From a virus, in the IMG/VR virus record IMGVR_UViG_3300037189_020067, positions 1 to 40,806 of that record: a stretch of 40,806 bases of DNA, one strand, 5' to 3'. Each line of letters opens with the position of its first letter. The stretch's first letter is position 1. Under the pieces are notes generated by a model, which saw only the letters and a program-made list of their open reading frames with translations, did not search any database and had not been told where the DNA came from. The translations under genes and the position numbers were made by a program. Of the stretch, positions 6,376 to 16,612 are shown piece by piece.

Positions 6376-6406
6376 TTAAGAGCCGTGGTGAGGCTCCCTT
6401 TTTTAT
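6376..6406. terminator. Hairpin with T-run between early genes
   Basis: GAGCC (6380-6384) and GGCTC (6392-6396) form a stem with a 7-base loop. On the plus strand CCTTTTTTATT follows, the shape of a rho-independent terminator. On the minus strand (the gene direction) the trailing tract is TTAAAATAATT, weaker. It lies just after the stop of the ArdC-like gene and could trim the leftward transcript or block antisense transcription. Confidence 0.5.
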
Positions 6407-7146
6407 TCTTGAGTTCCCGCCTTTAAAATCTTACTTGCCGCGCCTAAAATTCTTTTAAAATTGCTTTCTTTTATTTCATCCCCTGCCAGCCAGTTTTTGA
6501 TATAATTTCTTGAAAATTCTAACCCCTCAAAAATTCCCAAGCTTGTTTTTACAATGTAGGCGGTGCCTTCCGCTTCTAACTCTTTTATTGATCTTGGCAA
6601 AAGATTTTCGCCATGATTTAAAGTTTCACCATCTTCGTTTTTATGAAGTAAGCAGTGCGCCATTTCATGAATTGAGGTTTTAAAAAAATCACTTGCTAGG
6701 GGGTTTATTGCTATCAAGTTTTGATTTGGTTTCGCGTACCCTTGGCAATTGCCATTGACCATAGCGAATTTTTCCACCTTAATTTCCAAAGCTGCTAAAG
6801 CCTTTTCTAAGTCAAAATTTGCTGGTAATTCTTGCTGATAATCCGCGCCGCTTGTGTCTGACAATTTGAACCAATTTTTTTTCTTGATGTAAAAAGTTTT
6901 GATCTTTGTTTCATCCTCTTTATCTTTTAAAGATACTGGCAGCATCAATTCAATTGCTTTAGCTCCTTTTTTTACTTGCCGCCCTAAGCCTTGCCAGCCT
7001 TTGTAAGTGTTGATTGGCTCTAATTCTTGCATTTGAACGCTTGCCAGCCATTGGTTGCCTAGTGAGTAATTATGAAATAATTTATAGCATTGCGCCGCTT
7101 TGGCTGGCTTGTCTAAAATTTCGTTTAAAAATTGGTTGTAATTCAT
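6403..7146 (-). CDS. ArdC-type anti-restriction protein with HExxH metallopeptidase domain
   Basis: A 247-residue protein with two parts. Residues 1-95 resemble the ArdC single-strand-DNA-binding domain: W33 (NQWLAS), YKGWQGLGRQVKKGAKAIELMLP at about 48-70, and a Y/F-IKKKNWF block at 85-93. Residues 110-245 are a zincin-like domain with HEMAH at 160-164 (HExxH) and KELEAEGTAYIV at 188-199 carrying a likely third ligand. Known ArdC proteins of plasmids and phages enter with DNA or are made early and protect it from host restriction. The leader is AAACAGGGGCGAAAA. Together with the methyltransferase it forms an anti-restriction set. Confidence 0.85.
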   Translation of the reverse strand: MNYNQFLNEILDKPAKAAQCYKLFHNYSLGNQWLASVQMQELEPINTYKGWQGLGRQVKKGAKAIELMLPVSLKDKEDETKIKTFYIKKKNWFKLSDTSGADYQQELPANFDLEKALAALEIKVEKFAMVNGNCQGYAKPNQNLIAINPLASDFFKTSIHEMAHCLLHKNEDGETLNHGENLLPRSIKELEAEGTAYIVKTSLGIFEGLEFSRNYIKNWLAGDEIKESNFKRILGAASKILKAGTQE

Positions 7147-8253: not shown

Positions 8254-8691
8254 ATGAAATTTGGCATTATTTTTATTGGAATATTTTGCTTTTGGATTAT
8301 TCTAGCTTATGCTTCTAATCCAGCCCCCAAAACTTCTAATTGGAAAATAATCGAAGCAATTGACGGCGACACTTTAAGGGTCGAAATACCCGCAATGCTG
8401 CCTTTGAAATATTCGATTAGGATCGGTGGAATTGATACGCCCGAAAAAGCTGGTCGCGCTAAATGTGAACAAGAAGCTTTGCTTGCTGAAAAAGCCTCTG
8501 AATTTACTAAAAATTTGGTAAAGAATTTAAAGACTTTTGAGATAAACAATTTAAAACATGATAAATACGGCGGTCGATTGCTGGCAAGCGTTAAGATTAA
8601 TAATATTGATGTTGGGCGCGCTTTGCAAAAAGAAGGCTTGGCTAGGATTTATCACGGCGAGAAAAAAGAAAGTTGGTGTGATAAAAGGTAA
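8254..8691 (+). CDS. Secreted thermonuclease (SNase family)
   Basis: A 145-residue protein. Residues 1-20 are a signal peptide ending AYA-SN (an AxA site), so it should be exported. The SNase fold follows: IDGDTLRV (36-43), IRIGGIDTPE (55-64) and KYGGRLLA (104-111) supply the Arg, Glu and Arg that match the catalytic trio of staphylococcal nuclease, and LQKEGLARIY (124-133) is also typical. The family cleaves DNA and RNA with Ca2+. It starts 3 bp after terS, in the packaging module. Export to the periplasm would keep it away from phage DNA; it could degrade competing incoming DNA or free DNA at lysis. Role inferred. Confidence 0.88.
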   Translation: MKFGIIFIGIFCFWIILAYASNPAPKTSNWKIIEAIDGDTLRVEIPAMLPLKYSIRIGGIDTPEKAGRAKCEQEALLAEKASEFTKNLVKNLKTFEINNLKHDKYGGRLLASVKINNIDVGRALQKEGLARIYHGEKKESWCDKR

Positions 8692-8705: not shown

Positions 8706-8780
8706 GCCGTGGTAGCACAACAGCAGTGCATCATTCTTGTAAAATGGAGGTTCTGGGTGCAAATCCTAGTCACGGCACCA
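8706..8780 (+). tRNA. tRNA-Thr (anticodon TGT), CCA encoded, unusual D and T loops
   Basis: A full cloverleaf folds: acceptor GCCGTGG/TCACGGC (one G-T), D stem GCAC/GTGC, anticodon stem TCATT/AATGG with loop CTTGTAA (anticodon TGT, reading ACA), a 5-base variable loop, T stem CTGGG/CCTAG, discriminator A and encoded CCA. G1-C72, C2-G71, G35 and U36 fit threonine identity. The D loop AACAGCA is only 7 bases with a single G, so the usual G18-G19 pair is missing, and the T loop TGCAAAT has G in place of T55. It lies between the nuclease gene and terL. Confidence 0.8.
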
Positions 8781-11887: not shown

Positions 11888-13262
11888 CAAAATCTTTAAG
11901 CCAGAAGAACTTAAAAGCTACGGCGAGACTAGGTTAAGCTTATTGCAGCTATTAAGCGGTAATTATGAGTACAAAAATAGCCCTACGGAGTTTTTAAACT
12001 ACTACACTGAAGCTTGTCCAGTCTTTACCGCGACAAAGATGATCGCTGATGCTGGTTCGTCAATTAAGCTAGTAATAAAAGATCGCAAAAAAGACGAATT
12101 TATTTACAGTCACCCTTTTCTTGAGCGGTTAAAAAATCCAAATCCATTTGTTGACGGCGAATTATTGTTAAAAGAAGTGATTAGCTATTACTTGCTCACT
12201 GGCAACAACTATTTAAATGTGGTTCAAAGTCTAAATAAAAAAGATGTTATAGAACTAAATGTTTTTGCGCCAAACAAAATTACAATTCAGAAAAATCAAA
12301 ATGACGGCTATGCTGGCGAATATAGTTACACAAACGGCAATCAAAATTTAGTCTACACAAGAAATGAGCAAAAGAAATTTATTGATAAAATTGGAAATGA
12401 ATTAATTCATCTTCGGGATTTTAACCCCAATTTTTCTTCCGACAATTTAGTTGGCTCTTCTGCCTTTTTAGGCTGCCAATTAGAGATAAGCCAGTACGTT
12501 GCCGCAAGTGTTCACAATAATTCCTTACTTAAAAATCAAGCGCGCCCAAGCGGGCTTTTGACTTACAAAGGGAATGATCCGCTGATGGATAATCAAGTTG
12601 CTAAAATTCGTGAAATGATCGATAATAAAATGTCTGGCACAAGCAACACTGGCAAACCTGCTTTCTTAAACGGAAATTTTGAATGGAAACAGCTTTCCGA
12701 GTCAATCAAAGATATGGACTTTCCAACACTTAAAAAAATGGTTGCTGAATCCATTTACAATGCTGTCAAAATACCCTTGCCGATGGTAAGTCCCGATAAC
12801 ATGAGCTTTGCTAATATGGATGCGGCAAAATATGCTTTTTATGACAATGCGGTGCTGCCAGTGGTTAGTAGAATTTTAAAATTCTTCACTAAAAATATTT
12901 TAAGCAAATACGCTGGCTCTGAAAATTTAGAGCTTACATTTGATCCATGTTCAATTGATGCTCTTGAGTCACGCAAAGTTGACAATGCGCTGACAATCTC
13001 AAAAAGTGGTGTTTTAGCCATAAATGAAATTAGGGCGAGGCTTGGCTACGAATCAATCGATAATGGCGACTCTGTTTATCAACCAGCTAATCTTTTGCCA
13101 GTTGGTGTTGATAAATACACAATTGATAACCGCGAATCGCCAGCTTCTAAATCAGATAAAGCCGAATATATCCGCCTAATGAGTTCTATGAAAACAATTG
13201 ATGGCAAAAGGCTTTATACTGACGATGTAATTAAAAAGCAGCTTGAAGCTTTTTATGAGTAG
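11880..13262 (+). CDS. Phage portal protein (HK97 family)
   Basis: A 460-residue protein with the HK97-type portal order: NSPTEFLNYYTEACPVFTATKMIADAGSSIKLVI near the N-terminus, HPFLERLKNPNPFVDGELLLKEVISYYLLTGNNYLNVV (about 81-118), the clip/stem region with LNVFAPNKITIQ, and the C-terminal LGYESIDNGDSVYQPANLLPVG typical of the family. By family it forms the dodecameric ring through which DNA enters and leaves and on which the terminase docks. It follows the accessory run and precedes the MuF-like gene, the usual order. Full length. Confidence 0.92.
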   Translation: MFSKIFKPEELKSYGETRLSLLQLLSGNYEYKNSPTEFLNYYTEACPVFTATKMIADAGSSIKLVIKDRKKDEFIYSHPFLERLKNPNPFVDGELLLKEVISYYLLTGNNYLNVVQSLNKKDVIELNVFAPNKITIQKNQNDGYAGEYSYTNGNQNLVYTRNEQKKFIDKIGNELIHLRDFNPNFSSDNLVGSSAFLGCQLEISQYVAASVHNNSLLKNQARPSGLLTYKGNDPLMDNQVAKIREMIDNKMSGTSNTGKPAFLNGNFEWKQLSESIKDMDFPTLKKMVAESIYNAVKIPLPMVSPDNMSFANMDAAKYAFYDNAVLPVVSRILKFFTKNILSKYAGSENLELTFDPCSIDALESRKVDNALTISKSGVLAINEIRARLGYESIDNGDSVYQPANLLPVGVDKYTIDNRESPASKSDKAEYIRLMSSMKTIDGKRLYTDDVIKKQLEAFYE

Positions 13263-14115
13263 AAAAGACGCGCAAAAAATTGATCTCGAGAAATTAAGAA
13301 TTGAAGCCACAATTACGCCAAAATTTAAAACAATTTTCAATAACATTGCGCGCGATGCCGAAAGGCTTTATAAAACAACTGGGAAACTTCCATCGCAAGA
13401 ATTAGCGCAGAATTATTATCCTGAATTTGTCAAAGAAATTCGCGATGCAATGCGTAAAACAATTAAATTCTTTGGGTTCGATTTAAGAAAGGCTCTTGAA
13501 TTAAAAGGTTTTAATTTTGACGCAGAATTTAAAAGTGGATTTATTGATTTAGAAAAAAAACTAAAAATCATTGATGAAAATTTAGATCCAAAACTTGAAG
13601 ATATTAATAATGAATTTTTAAGAAATGCGACTTTATTCATTGCTAATCAAAGCGAAGTACAGGCTGATTATATCACGCAAACAAACGCAAAAGAATTGGC
13701 ACTAGCGGCTTTACAAGAAGAAACAGCTTATTTATCAAATCAAAAAGCAAATGAGATTTGGGCTATTATTGCTAAGAATCTGTTTATAAATCTTTTAGAC
13801 AGAAGGGACGGCAGGGTTGATTTAATTTCAAGCCAAGTGGTAGGGCTTGCTGAAGCTTGGAGTCGTCAAGAAGAGGCGCGCTTGATTAATCAAGCTGAAT
13901 TACAATCGCAAAACAAACCCGTAAGAGTTTTAAAAACTTGGTGGGCAATTTTAGACTCAAAGACTCGCGCCAGTCATGTCGAAGCAGACCAACAGCAAGT
14001 TGGCGTGGATGAGTTATTCTATGTCGGTGGTGCTTCTGCTATGTACCCAAGAGATCCTAATTTGCCAGCCAGTGAGTCGATTAATTGTAGGTGTGTAAGT
14101 GTTAATTCTGTTTAA
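13255..14115 (+). CDS. Minor head protein, MuF-like
   Basis: 286 residues from the ATG at 13255 (MSRKDAQKIDLEKL); an upstream in-frame start at 13243 would add four residues within the portal gene. The N-terminal two thirds are helical. The C-terminal MuF domain is clear: KTWWAILDSKTRASHVEADQ, F-YVGGASAMYPRDPNLPASESINCRC with the closing NCRC at about 277-280. By family it is a head-morphogenesis protein packaged near the portal. It overlaps the portal gene by 8 bp and converges with the minus-strand block (14-bp overlap). Confidence 0.88.
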   Translation: MSRKDAQKIDLEKLRIEATITPKFKTIFNNIARDAERLYKTTGKLPSQELAQNYYPEFVKEIRDAMRKTIKFFGFDLRKALELKGFNFDAEFKSGFIDLEKKLKIIDENLDPKLEDINNEFLRNATLFIANQSEVQADYITQTNAKELALAALQEETAYLSNQKANEIWAIIAKNLFINLLDRRDGRVDLISSQVVGLAEAWSRQEEARLINQAELQSQNKPVRVLKTWWAILDSKTRASHVEADQQQVGVDELFYVGGASAMYPRDPNLPASESINCRCVSVNSV

Positions 14116-14671
14116 AATTATTTAATTTTTTTAAATATTTTTCTTTTTCTTGTTTAAAAAAATAATCAGCAAAACATTTAGCATCATCTGGATTGCTAAA
14201 ATTACATTCCCAAATATTTGCTATCTTTCCAAAATCATAAATTCTTTTAGCCAAATTGAAACTAAGATTATGTGATTTAATAACGTAGTTCAAAAAAGTT
14301 TTATCTATCGTAATTTTGTAATTGTCGCTGCAAACAGGCGCGCAACATATTTCCACCATTTTAATTAGTTGCTCTTCTGAAAGAAAAGGATTTTTTAAAA
14401 CTTCTCTAGCAACAACGGCGTGATATTTTAAGCCTTTTGGATCAATAAAATCAAAAACAATATCACTAATCAATTCTAAATTATTGGTGGTTTTTAAACT
14501 TTTAAACCATGATTTACATTGTTCAAGTCGTTTTTTTTCTTGCAATCTTTCTTGCATTTGTATTTCGGCAGCAATTTTTGAAAGTCTAGAAATTTCCAAA
14601 TTAATTTCTGGTAATTCATTAAGTGCAATAGAATTTTTCCAGTTTATTAAATAAGGATTAGATTGAATCAT
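14102..14671 (-). CDS. Hypothetical protein of the inserted minus-strand block
   Basis: A 189-residue, mostly helical protein with six cysteines (among them CCAPVC at about 109-114) and a C-terminal lysine-rich tail. Its N-terminal half contains a coiled-coil-like stretch (EIQMQERLQEKKRLEQCKSWFKSL). It overlaps the next minus gene by 4 bp (ATGA), and its 3' end overlaps the MuF gene by 14 bp. No family recognised. It is the last of four genes transcribed against the head operon. Confidence 0.65.
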   Translation of the reverse strand: MIQSNPYLINWKNSIALNELPEINLEISRLSKIAAEIQMQERLQEKKRLEQCKSWFKSLKTTNNLELISDIVFDFIDPKGLKYHAVVAREVLKNPFLSEEQLIKMVEICCAPVCSDNYKITIDKTFLNYVIKSHNLSFNLAKRIYDFGKIANIWECNFSNPDDAKCFADYFFKQEKEKYLKKLNNFKQN

Positions 14672-14961
14672 ATGATTTTAGCAAAAAATTTTTTAAATAA
14701 ATCATCAACAATTAGTTTTTTTTCTAATTTTTCTTTTTCAACAACAGCTTCATAAGCTTGAAAAAATGATTTAAAAGCGCAAAGATCATTCTTTTCCTTT
14801 TCTTTTCGCAATCTAATTTTTTGCAACTCTTCTTCTTGTTCAGCTTCTAAAGCGTTGGCAAGACTTTGCGCTGCATTTTGTAATTCAGAAAAATTACAAT
14901 CTTCTTTTAGAGTTTTTTTTAACTCTGCCAAAGCACGTTCAACTTTAAAATTTATTGTCAT
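14668..14961 (-). CDS. Coiled-coil protein of the minus-strand block
   Basis: 97 residues, almost entirely charged heptads (ALEAEQEEELQKIRLRKEKEKNDL in the middle). No catalytic motif. It is coupled to the downstream 189-residue gene through an ATGA overlap, so the two may act together. Function unknown. Confidence 0.65.
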   Translation of the reverse strand: MTINFKVERALAELKKTLKEDCNFSELQNAAQSLANALEAEQEEELQKIRLRKEKEKNDLCAFKSFFQAYEAVVEKEKLEKKLIVDDLFKKFFAKII

Positions 14962-14997: not shown

Positions 14998-15564
14998 TTA
15001 TACTGTAATAGTTTCATAATCATCAGGAACTGCTGGAGGAGCTTTTTGTTGTTTTAAAATCTCTACAATTTGAGCTTCACCAGATGTCCACACATTCATT
15101 TGAACAGTCAAATCAATAGCTTCTTTAACTGATTTCCCAAGGTGCATAGCCATATAAGACTCTTTAAATCCAGCTCCATCAGTTGCAAAATCATTTTCTA
15201 AAATTTCTTGAACCGCTCCACTTCGATAATGAAATAATTTTTTTTCAAAAACTAAAAAATAATGGTTATCAACTTTGCCATTTGGTTCAATGTTTTGTTC
15301 TTTTAGCCATTTTCCAAAGTCAATGAAAAATCTTTGGATTCCTAGTTGATCGCTTCTCTCGGGCTTTCTAGTTTGACAAAATAACGCAAAATTGACTTGT
15401 TCAGAATATGAACCTGTTGAGGAAAAAACAACGTCATTAACCTGCGCAATTTTTTGCTGCATTTGATGATTGCTGCAATGAAATTTATGATTGTCCATAA
15501 ATAACCCCGTGTCAGCTCCAAGAATTATTTTATCTTTTGTGTTTTGTGCTATTAATACCGTCAT
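14998..15564 (-). CDS. HslV/proteasome-like Ntn hydrolase
   Basis: 188 residues starting MTVLIAQ. With Met removed, Thr1 is the N-terminus, Asp17 falls in IILGADTGL exactly as in proteasome beta subunits, and the following KIAQV supplies a lysine at 37 where HslV has Lys33. VVFSSTGSYSEQ matches the oxyanion-Gly region, and DFATDGAGFKESYMAMHLGKSVKEAIDLTVQMNVWTSGEAQIVEI matches the HslV 'GSGG..A' helix and AV..A helix plus the last strand. GAGG lies 7 bases before the ATG. It should be an N-terminal-threonine peptidase or relative. No ATPase partner is in the window. It overlaps its upstream neighbour by 4 bp. Substrate unknown. Confidence 0.78.
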   Translation of the reverse strand: MTVLIAQNTKDKIILGADTGLFMDNHKFHCSNHQMQQKIAQVNDVVFSSTGSYSEQVNFALFCQTRKPERSDQLGIQRFFIDFGKWLKEQNIEPNGKVDNHYFLVFEKKLFHYRSGAVQEILENDFATDGAGFKESYMAMHLGKSVKEAIDLTVQMNVWTSGEAQIVEILKQQKAPPAVPDDYETITV

Positions 15565-15851
15565 TTTATAACCTCATTTTTAAATTCTTGTCTCAATTGC
15601 TCTAAAGTTCTCACATCCTCGTCTTTTATCTTTCCCATAAGTCGCGCAATTACCAAATCTTTATGTAATGAGTTCCAAACGCGTGTAGGAACGCCGTAAT
15701 GGTTCCAATCATGACACATGCTTTTACAATATGGCAAAGATGCGCTAAATCTCAAAACCTCCCCGTTATAAGGCAATGCGTTTTTATGTTTTTTGATGAT
15801 CCATTTAAGAAGATCGTAATCGCCGCTAAATTTAATGTTAAATAAGTCCAT
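15561..15851 (-). CDS. Hypothetical protein encoded ahead of the Ntn hydrolase
   Basis: 96 residues (MDLFNIKFSGDYDLLKWIIKKHKNALPYNGEV...), including YCKSMCHDWNHYG (C-x3-C plus His) in the middle and a helical charged C-terminus. It overlaps the Ntn hydrolase start by an ATGA, so the two are co-translated and may be partners. It is the promoter-proximal gene of the minus-strand block; its start is 10 bp from the late motif at 15861. Family unknown. Confidence 0.65.
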   Translation of the reverse strand: MDLFNIKFSGDYDLLKWIIKKHKNALPYNGEVLRFSASLPYCKSMCHDWNHYGVPTRVWNSLHKDLVIARLMGKIKDEDVRTLEQLRQEFKNEVIK

Positions 15852-15904: not shown

Positions 15905-16612
15905 ATGCAAACATTTTTAATAAAATTTTTGCAAATGCAACAAAAAATAAAAGAAACCAAGAGGTTTTCGTTTGAAATTAAAGCGATGTCCGAAGAAGAC
16001 AATAATTTTATCTTTGAAGGCTACGCGTCAACTTTTGGCAATGTCGATTTAGGCGAAGATGTTATTGCTGCTGGCGCGTTTACCAAAACTTTAATTGAAA
16101 CGCCAAATGTTCCAATTTTATGGCAACATGAAATGGATGAACCAATTGGAATTTCTATCACCTTAAGGGAAGATGCTAAGGGCTTATTTGTTCAAGCTAA
16201 ATTGCCAAAAGATGATACTCAAGTGAGTGGAAAAGTAATTCCACAAATGCGGATTGGATCAGTTAGAGAGATGTCAATAGGCTATTTTGCCATTAATTGC
16301 GAATACCAAGATGAAATCAGAATTATCAAAGAAATTGAACTCTTTGAGATCTCTCTAGTTACCAAAGCCATGAATCCGAAGGCTTTAATCACTGGCTTCA
16401 AATCTCTTGAGTCGCTAAGCGATGTCGAAAAATCACTCAAAGAAAGAGGGTTCTCAAATACCGAGGCTAAAACCCTAATTTCTAAAATCAAAGAATTTTC
16501 CAATCAGCGTGACGCTGAAGAAATAAAGTCTCTGCGCGATGCCGAGCAAAAAGCCAAGTTGCTGGCTGGAATAAGCGACTTAACAAACTTTATTAAATCA
16601 AAAAAACAATAA
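15905..16612 (+). CDS. HK97-type prohead protease (peptidase S78)
   Basis: 235 residues from 15905. The S78 fold is clear: NFIFEGYASTFGNVDLGEDVIAAGAF, catalytic His75 in ILWQHEMDEPIG, Ser124 in REMSIGY, and the acidic member in IELFEISLVTKAMNP (Glu145/148). It matures the capsid by removing the scaffold domain. Neither candidate start has a Shine-Dalgarno sequence. The ATG at 15935 (MQQKIKETKRFSFEIKA) gives the more usual N-terminus and fits the 63-73 bp spacing from the late motif, so the protein may be 225 residues. The C-terminal tail (after ~165) is charged and helical. Confidence 0.92.
   Translation: MQTFLIKFLQMQQKIKETKRFSFEIKAMSEEDNNFIFEGYASTFGNVDLGEDVIAAGAFTKTLIETPNVPILWQHEMDEPIGISITLREDAKGLFVQAKLPKDDTQVSGKVIPQMRIGSVREMSIGYFAINCEYQDEIRIIKEIELFEISLVTKAMNPKALITGFKSLESLSDVEKSLKERGFSNTEAKTLISKIKEFSNQRDAEEIKSLRDAEQKAKLLAGISDLTNFIKSKKQ

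Follow-up and report, generated by a model that had tools for sequence, protein, structure and literature searches.

Phage-encoded proteasome-like enzymes are already known as a kind, both as the protein family PHROG 1040 and from the survey of Fuchs et al. 2021, who described PPH in Caudovirales, proteins of about 140 residues without helix H2, and AAH in many phages (PMC8665760). The same survey reported no genomic context hinting at function and no co-occurring AAA+ partner (PMC8665760). PHROG 1040 is a broad family with no tested function. In annotated phages, tblastn with one query found proteins of the PHROG 1040 type in 181 records and with another in 29; T5-like phages and phage EL are among them, and the label is frequently 'peptidase HslV family'. 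Databases thus contain many proteasome homologues from phages, yet none with a known substrate was found. Aeromonas phage 2L372D encodes two adjacent and mutually divergent genes of this label (L112, 2001-2552 and 2570-3454), hinting at hetero-oligomers or separate roles. In Microbacterium phage BarnCat, the GTG start of a gene annotated as 'protease' (L015, 3629-4123) gives no N-terminal threonine; the start may have been annotated wrongly, or the product may be inactive.

The nearest solved structure to the enzyme described here is BPH, the betaproteobacterial proteasome homologue (PDB 5ovs, 5ovt, 5ovu). Removal of the start methionine has been reported to expose Thr1 in BPH, the active site of Td-BPH consists of Thr-1, Asp-17, Lys-37, and Gly-50, and the protein was inert on standard substrates, yet Thr1 reacted with epoxomicin (PMC5777263). 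In the proteasome, Ser129 and Asp166 have been proposed to protonate the Thr1 amine, and the D166N mutation in yeast beta5 strongly cuts activity while Thr1 still binds inhibitors covalently (PMC4792962). New in the present case are an Ala/Asn signature at these two positions, the retention of helix H2, which is missing in PPH, and the occurrence of the gene as an optional cargo of an antisense slot, with the supposed partner gene as its anchor.

The window, the stretch of DNA analysed here, is the whole of a 40,806-base IMG/VR virus record. The phage is contractile-tailed and has genes for terminase, portal, prohead protease, an HK97-type capsid protein, tail sheath, tape measure, and baseplate. 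The open reading frame under study starts with ATG and encodes 188 residues beginning with Met-Thr, exactly as stated in a preliminary description of this DNA. The 4-bp overlap with the upstream gene on the same strand, the transcription against the head genes, and the nearby prohead protease were also described correctly. However, the minus-strand block has four genes and not two, with the Ntn gene in second place, and lies between the head-morphogenesis and prohead protease genes:

13243..14115 (+): head morphogenesis gene, convergent, closing one side of the slot (phrog_2468, E 1.3e-24)
14102..14671 (-): cargo ORF of 189 aa, no family match, absent from the relatives examined
14668..14961 (-): cargo gene of 97 aa, weakly constrained (dN/dS about 0.8), among the relatives only in L001
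14998..15564 (-): gene of the proteasome-like Ntn hydrolase, 188 aa (PHROG 1040, AlphaFold2 model, match to BPH 5ovt)
14998..15048 (-): variable C-terminal tail of the enzyme, ending PPAVPDDYETITV, absent in L001, L007, and L009
15561..15851 (-): conserved slot-anchor gene, 96 aa, the 'partner' of the preliminary description, with related genes in 19 viral loci, the majority of which lack the enzyme
15905..16612 (+): prohead protease gene, divergent, closing the other side of the slot (PF04586, E 3.6e-30)

Elsewhere in the window, the gene at 6403-7146 (-) combines an ArdC-like N-terminal domain with a zincin-like metallopeptidase domain, by which its product is a possible anti-restriction protein. 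A staphylococcal-nuclease-like gene (8254-8691, +) and a tRNA-Thr(TGT) (8706-8780, +) are located between the genes of the small and large terminase subunits.

Close relatives of the enzyme are present on nine IMG/VR contigs with 70-92% identity, and one further relative comes from a Rickettsiales MAG, where a single contig (L011) encodes it. A DNA pattern scan, part of whose 37 hits are unrelated proteins, added two mutually identical relatives (L049 and L056). The members of the subfamily are 171-209 residues long, and 11 of them form the alignment from which residues were counted. Pairwise dN/dS values of the enzyme gene, calculated as ratios of dN and dS, are 0.07, 0.14, 0.19, and 0.22, and the enzyme is therefore under purifying selection; the gene is real. 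Among 262 genomes of Rickettsiales the gene was found in that one MAG, next to a doubtful short match in G186 (51 residues, E 4.9e-4) that was set aside, and it is therefore rare in that order. The host of the uncultivated phage is probably a Rickettsiales-like bacterium, based on the one MAG contig, which is possibly a misbinned phage. The tRNA-Thr of the window has no close copy among five Rickettsiales genomes and gives no confirmation of the host. The subfamily had no significant match among 50,697 phage records (best E 0.2), and a plasmid search gave no match to the enzyme. PADLOC reported nothing for the enzyme or its neighbours in the window, and promoter and terminator scans performed no better than on shuffled sequences.

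By fold and family the window protein is almost certainly a proteasome-family Ntn hydrolase. PHROG 1040 matches its residues 1-176 (E 7e-13) as well as all 21 members of a wider alignment, A2. Neither Pfam Proteasome (PF00227, up to E 5) nor NCBIfam matches the window protein; Pfam Proteasome does match four other members of A2 (best 9e-7). The prohead protease family S78 (PF04586) belongs to the neighbouring gene and does not match the enzyme. An AlphaFold2 model from 21 sequences (pLDDT 90.2, pTM 0.85) shows the alpha-beta-beta-alpha Ntn sandwich with S1-S11 and H1-H4 in the complete proteasome order (S1-S6, H1, H2, S7-S10, H3, H4, S11). An earlier model built with 10 close homologues reached a pLDDT of 57.5 and gave weak fold matches, of which BPH was already the top one. 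Foldseek against the PDB also places BPH first (E 5e-10, TM 0.78), and structure comparison yields a Z-score of 21.4 for 5ovt (2.4 Å over 170 residues, 17% identity) and a lower one of 17.8 for Escherichia coli HslV. Furthermore, 42 predicted viral structures match the model at E 1e-3 or better. At the sequence level, hhalign aligned the wider alignment to Rickettsiales HslV (96.8% probability, E 2e-10, 146 columns); the alignment of close homologues alone found nothing against HslV, and sequence searches of the PDB returned just chance matches, among them an adhesin repeat. Thus the HslV/proteasome-like Ntn fold of the preliminary description is borne out by structure prediction and comparison; the nearest solved structure, however, is BPH and neither HslV nor Anbu. 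Homologues in phage databases do exist, and in large number (PHROG 1040), and the phage family to which the gene belongs was already known (PPH and AAH).

In its build, the window enzyme stands between BPH and HslV on one side and the short phage PPH proteins on the other. It shares with BPH the spacing of Thr1, Asp17, Lys37, and Gly50, and neither protein has a propeptide or a dedicated unfoldase. The two differ in that the window enzyme is phage-borne, in that BPH Ser139, which hydrogen-bonds Thr1, is replaced by Ala130, and in the H2-S7 loop, which is a long and strongly acidic pore loop in BPH but in the window enzyme comprises about 12 residues (NIEPNGKVDNHY-like), of which one is basic and two are acidic. 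With HslV the enzyme has the fold and Thr1, Asp17, and the lysine in common, but it is only about 10% identical to Rickettsiales HslV and has neither the serine of the GSG motif nor a Pfam Proteasome match. Like PPH, it is a phage-borne, group I-like proteasome homologue, and its C-terminal A-M-x-L-G-K-S-x-x-E-A-I motif recurs in short relatives from phages, among them the one of DSL-LC04, although the PPH-type sequences were fetched by a pattern of this motif, so that its sharing is partly by construction and the DSL-LC04 match is the independent one. In contrast to PPH, the window enzyme has 188 residues and a helix H2 (predicted at residues 73-89), and the Ser/Thr129 and Asp166 of PPH are Ala and Asn in the window subfamily. 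The two-helix insertion that connectases have between S3 and S4 is absent from the model.

The positions that define the active site are encoded as follows, in mature numbering without the start methionine:

15559..15561 (-): codon of Thr1, the nucleophile after Met removal, invariant in 11/11 subfamily members
15511..15513 (-): codon of Asp17, invariant in 40/40 aligned sequences
15451..15453 (-): codon of the catalytic Lys37 (proteasome Lys33, BPH Lys37), invariant in 40/40 aligned sequences
15412..15414 (-): codon of the oxyanion-hole Gly50 (proteasome Gly47, BPH Gly50), invariant in the 21 A2 sequences
15172..15174 (-): codon of Ala130 (position of proteasome Ser129 and BPH Ser139), Ala in 11/11 subfamily members
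15094..15096 (-): codon of Asn156 (position of proteasome Asp166), Asn in 11/11 subfamily members and Asp in 10/10 PPH-type sequences

The threonine directly follows the start methionine and there is no propeptide, so Met removal would expose Thr1. Asp18 (mature Asp17) and Lys38 ahead of I-A-Q (mature Lys37) are present as described before, and Thr1, Asp17, and the lysine are kept in every close homologue. Including Gly50, all four residues are invariant in the 11 subfamily members, and the window enzyme has the equivalents of Thr/Ser1, Asp17, Lys33, and the oxyanion Gly47 that are characteristic of proteasome-like enzymes. The Ser129 position is different. It is Ala in all 11 members, giving G-A-G in place of the G-S-G serine motif of HslV, and Ser, Thr, or Cys in all 29 remaining sequences of the alignment (10 short phage proteins, seven HslV, 11 proteins from annotated phages, and one divergent slot protein). 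At the Asp166 position all 10 short phage proteins have Asp, but HslV has Cys, and still other residues occur in the T5-like forms and in some from Vibrio. This position is thus varied across the superfamily, and Ala130 is, as judged from the alignment, the cleaner signature, although Asn156 is subfamily-specific as well. Among the sequences examined, the combination of Ala and Asn is confined to this subfamily and is a new feature. By analogy with the yeast mutant we infer that Thr1 is still a functional nucleophile, though probably slower or more selective. The Ala/Asn changes could equally well belong to a nearly inactive enzyme.

Within the subfamily the sequences do not diverge evenly. 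Residues 63-171 are 70-91% identical to those of the window enzyme, whereas residues 19-62 are 45-59% identical in all members except L001. In L002 this segment is 48% identical against 91% for the remainder, the third codon positions echo the split (57% versus 78%), and the segment resembles that of L003, which together suggests that it has been exchanged through recombination. The equivalent stretch of the proteasome carries residues of the S1 pocket, and by proteasome numbering the segment may therefore represent the substrate pocket. The C-terminal tail is variable as well. The tail PPAVPDDYETITV that the window enzyme carries has a counterpart, PPAVPDDYDTKTI, at the C-terminus of a 23%-identical Ntn protein (L102, 4618-4680). 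The ORF that follows there (L102, 4691-4800) encodes a small membrane protein and has the motif close to its start as IPPAVPCDY, and in L002 (8519-8570) the tail of the window enzyme is located behind an early stop. This recurring tail could be a docking peptide, an exchanged DNA end, or the result of chance.

The slot itself is best understood from the gene at 15561-15851, which is divergent from the prohead protease in all 19 viral loci. In five of these contigs (L094, L095, L096, L105, L106) the slot is empty and the anchor gene is directly followed by the convergent head-morphogenesis gene. L090 and L092 each have two genes of putative lipoproteins or secreted proteins in the slot, L090 in addition an HNH-like gene, and L091 and L093 carry little or nothing as cargo. 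The slots of L102 and L103 (4045-4683) contain another Ntn protein, which matches PHROG 1040, is 23% identical to that of the window (E 1.9e-9), and keeps T1, D17, the lysine, and GSG. Nine related contigs with a slot readable throughout have the anchor gene but not the enzyme, and the anchor gene is therefore not an obligate partner. The enzyme is also found outside the slot: in L002 its gene lies close to lysis genes, and in L009 it is located upstream of the terminase gene. L003 and L005 encode enzymes that share 73-75% identity with that of the window, whereas identity of the prohead protease is 36% and the major capsid protein has no detectable similarity. Taken together, the enzyme gene is very probably an optional and swappable cargo of an antisense slot, of which the anchor gene is the conserved part. 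No consistent neighbour gene pointing to a substrate was found among the loci compared. In L003 (9035-11006, +) an RlaP-type nucleotidyltransferase and a C5 cytosine methylase share the slot with the Ntn gene; these could be counter-defence cargo, a single case.

What the enzyme does can be approached from these data. The reading we prefer, and which we consider somewhat better than an even bet, is that of a phage-borne proteasome-family Ntn hydrolase that is an optional cargo and acts as a narrow-specificity, HslU-independent Thr1 amidase or protease on a host or non-structural target; taken for itself, the narrow-specificity action on such a target has about even chances. In this scheme methionine aminopeptidase would expose Thr1, and the subunits would probably assemble as a ring like those of HslV and of BPH, which forms a tetradecameric double ring, the model being that of a monomer. 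Lys37 and Asp17 would activate Thr1 Ogamma, whose attack would be limited to a single peptide or amide bond, or to very few, in a target that belongs to the host or is a non-structural product of the phage, and no dedicated unfoldase would be needed. Loss of the Ser129/Asp166 pair would result in a slow and selective enzyme instead of a processive protease, and the fast-evolving segment 19-62 would set the specificity. The same loss might conceivably have gone further, to a sequence-specific transpeptidase/ligase or a highly selective amidase whose segment 19-62 is swapped between phages and tracks the host target, but we regard this as improbable. A ligase similar to connectase would form amide bonds rather than hydrolyse them: without Ser129 and Asp166 the Thr1 amine would be less protonated, so that the acyl-enzyme would be hydrolysed more slowly and another amine could resolve it. 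The joint Ala/Asn replacement in all 11 members, the expectation that D166N lowers the pKa of Thr1 N (PMC4792962), and a known proteasome homologue acting as ligase (PMC8665760) agree with this. However, the connectase-type insertion of two helices after S3 is missing, Lys37 is shifted by only four residues relative to its later-aligned counterpart in HslV, towards the C-terminus and just as it is in BPH, and neither a donor nor an acceptor motif was identified, so that we give a ligase little credit. Slightly less doubtful, though still unlikely, is the explanation as an Ntn scaffold with impaired catalysis or as an amidase that acts on small metabolites instead of proteins. The lost second triad, the varied amides on which Ntn hydrolases generally act (PMC8665760), and the inertness of BPH on peptides and casein (PMC5777263) fit this explanation, but invariant Thr1, Asp17, Lys37, and Gly50 under strong purifying selection speak against it.

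The remaining explanations assign the enzyme to a known machinery. The phage subunit could replace or poison host HslV by docking on the host HslU ATPase and thereby redirecting or blocking it. The phage record was said to lack HslU, and a profile search (TIGR00390) agrees, with no match in G000 and four relatives, records that may be fragments; the only MAG with a member of the subfamily (L011) encodes both HslU (E 7.8e-180) and HslV, and the fold of the phage enzyme is HslV-like. But its identity to Rickettsiales HslV is just about 9-11%, the HslU interface is lost in BPH, the nearest solved structure (PMC5777263), and the link to the host is one contig, which leaves docking on HslU an outside chance. 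A second head-maturation protease for capsid or scaffold proteins would suit the position next to the prohead protease, which the enzyme adjoins in nine of 11 loci with readable surroundings (the window, L001, L003-L008, and L011). However, the gene is on the strand opposite to the head genes, related phages that share these head genes have an empty slot, and the window phage already encodes a serine prohead protease. The enzyme is kept away from the head module (L002, L009) and beside unrelated capsid proteins (L003/L005), and capsid processing, as suggested in the preliminary description, is therefore unlikely; a role in capsid maturation was rejected on this neighbourhood evidence, and a head-maturation function in general appears highly improbable.

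The subfamily offers a compact test case, with a shared core, one differing segment that is possibly the substrate pocket, and the empty slots as a natural control. In addition, it carries a natural counterpart of the D166N/Ser129 change that has been studied in yeast. It could thus reveal whether host or virion is the target of such enzymes, and for what the second triad is required.
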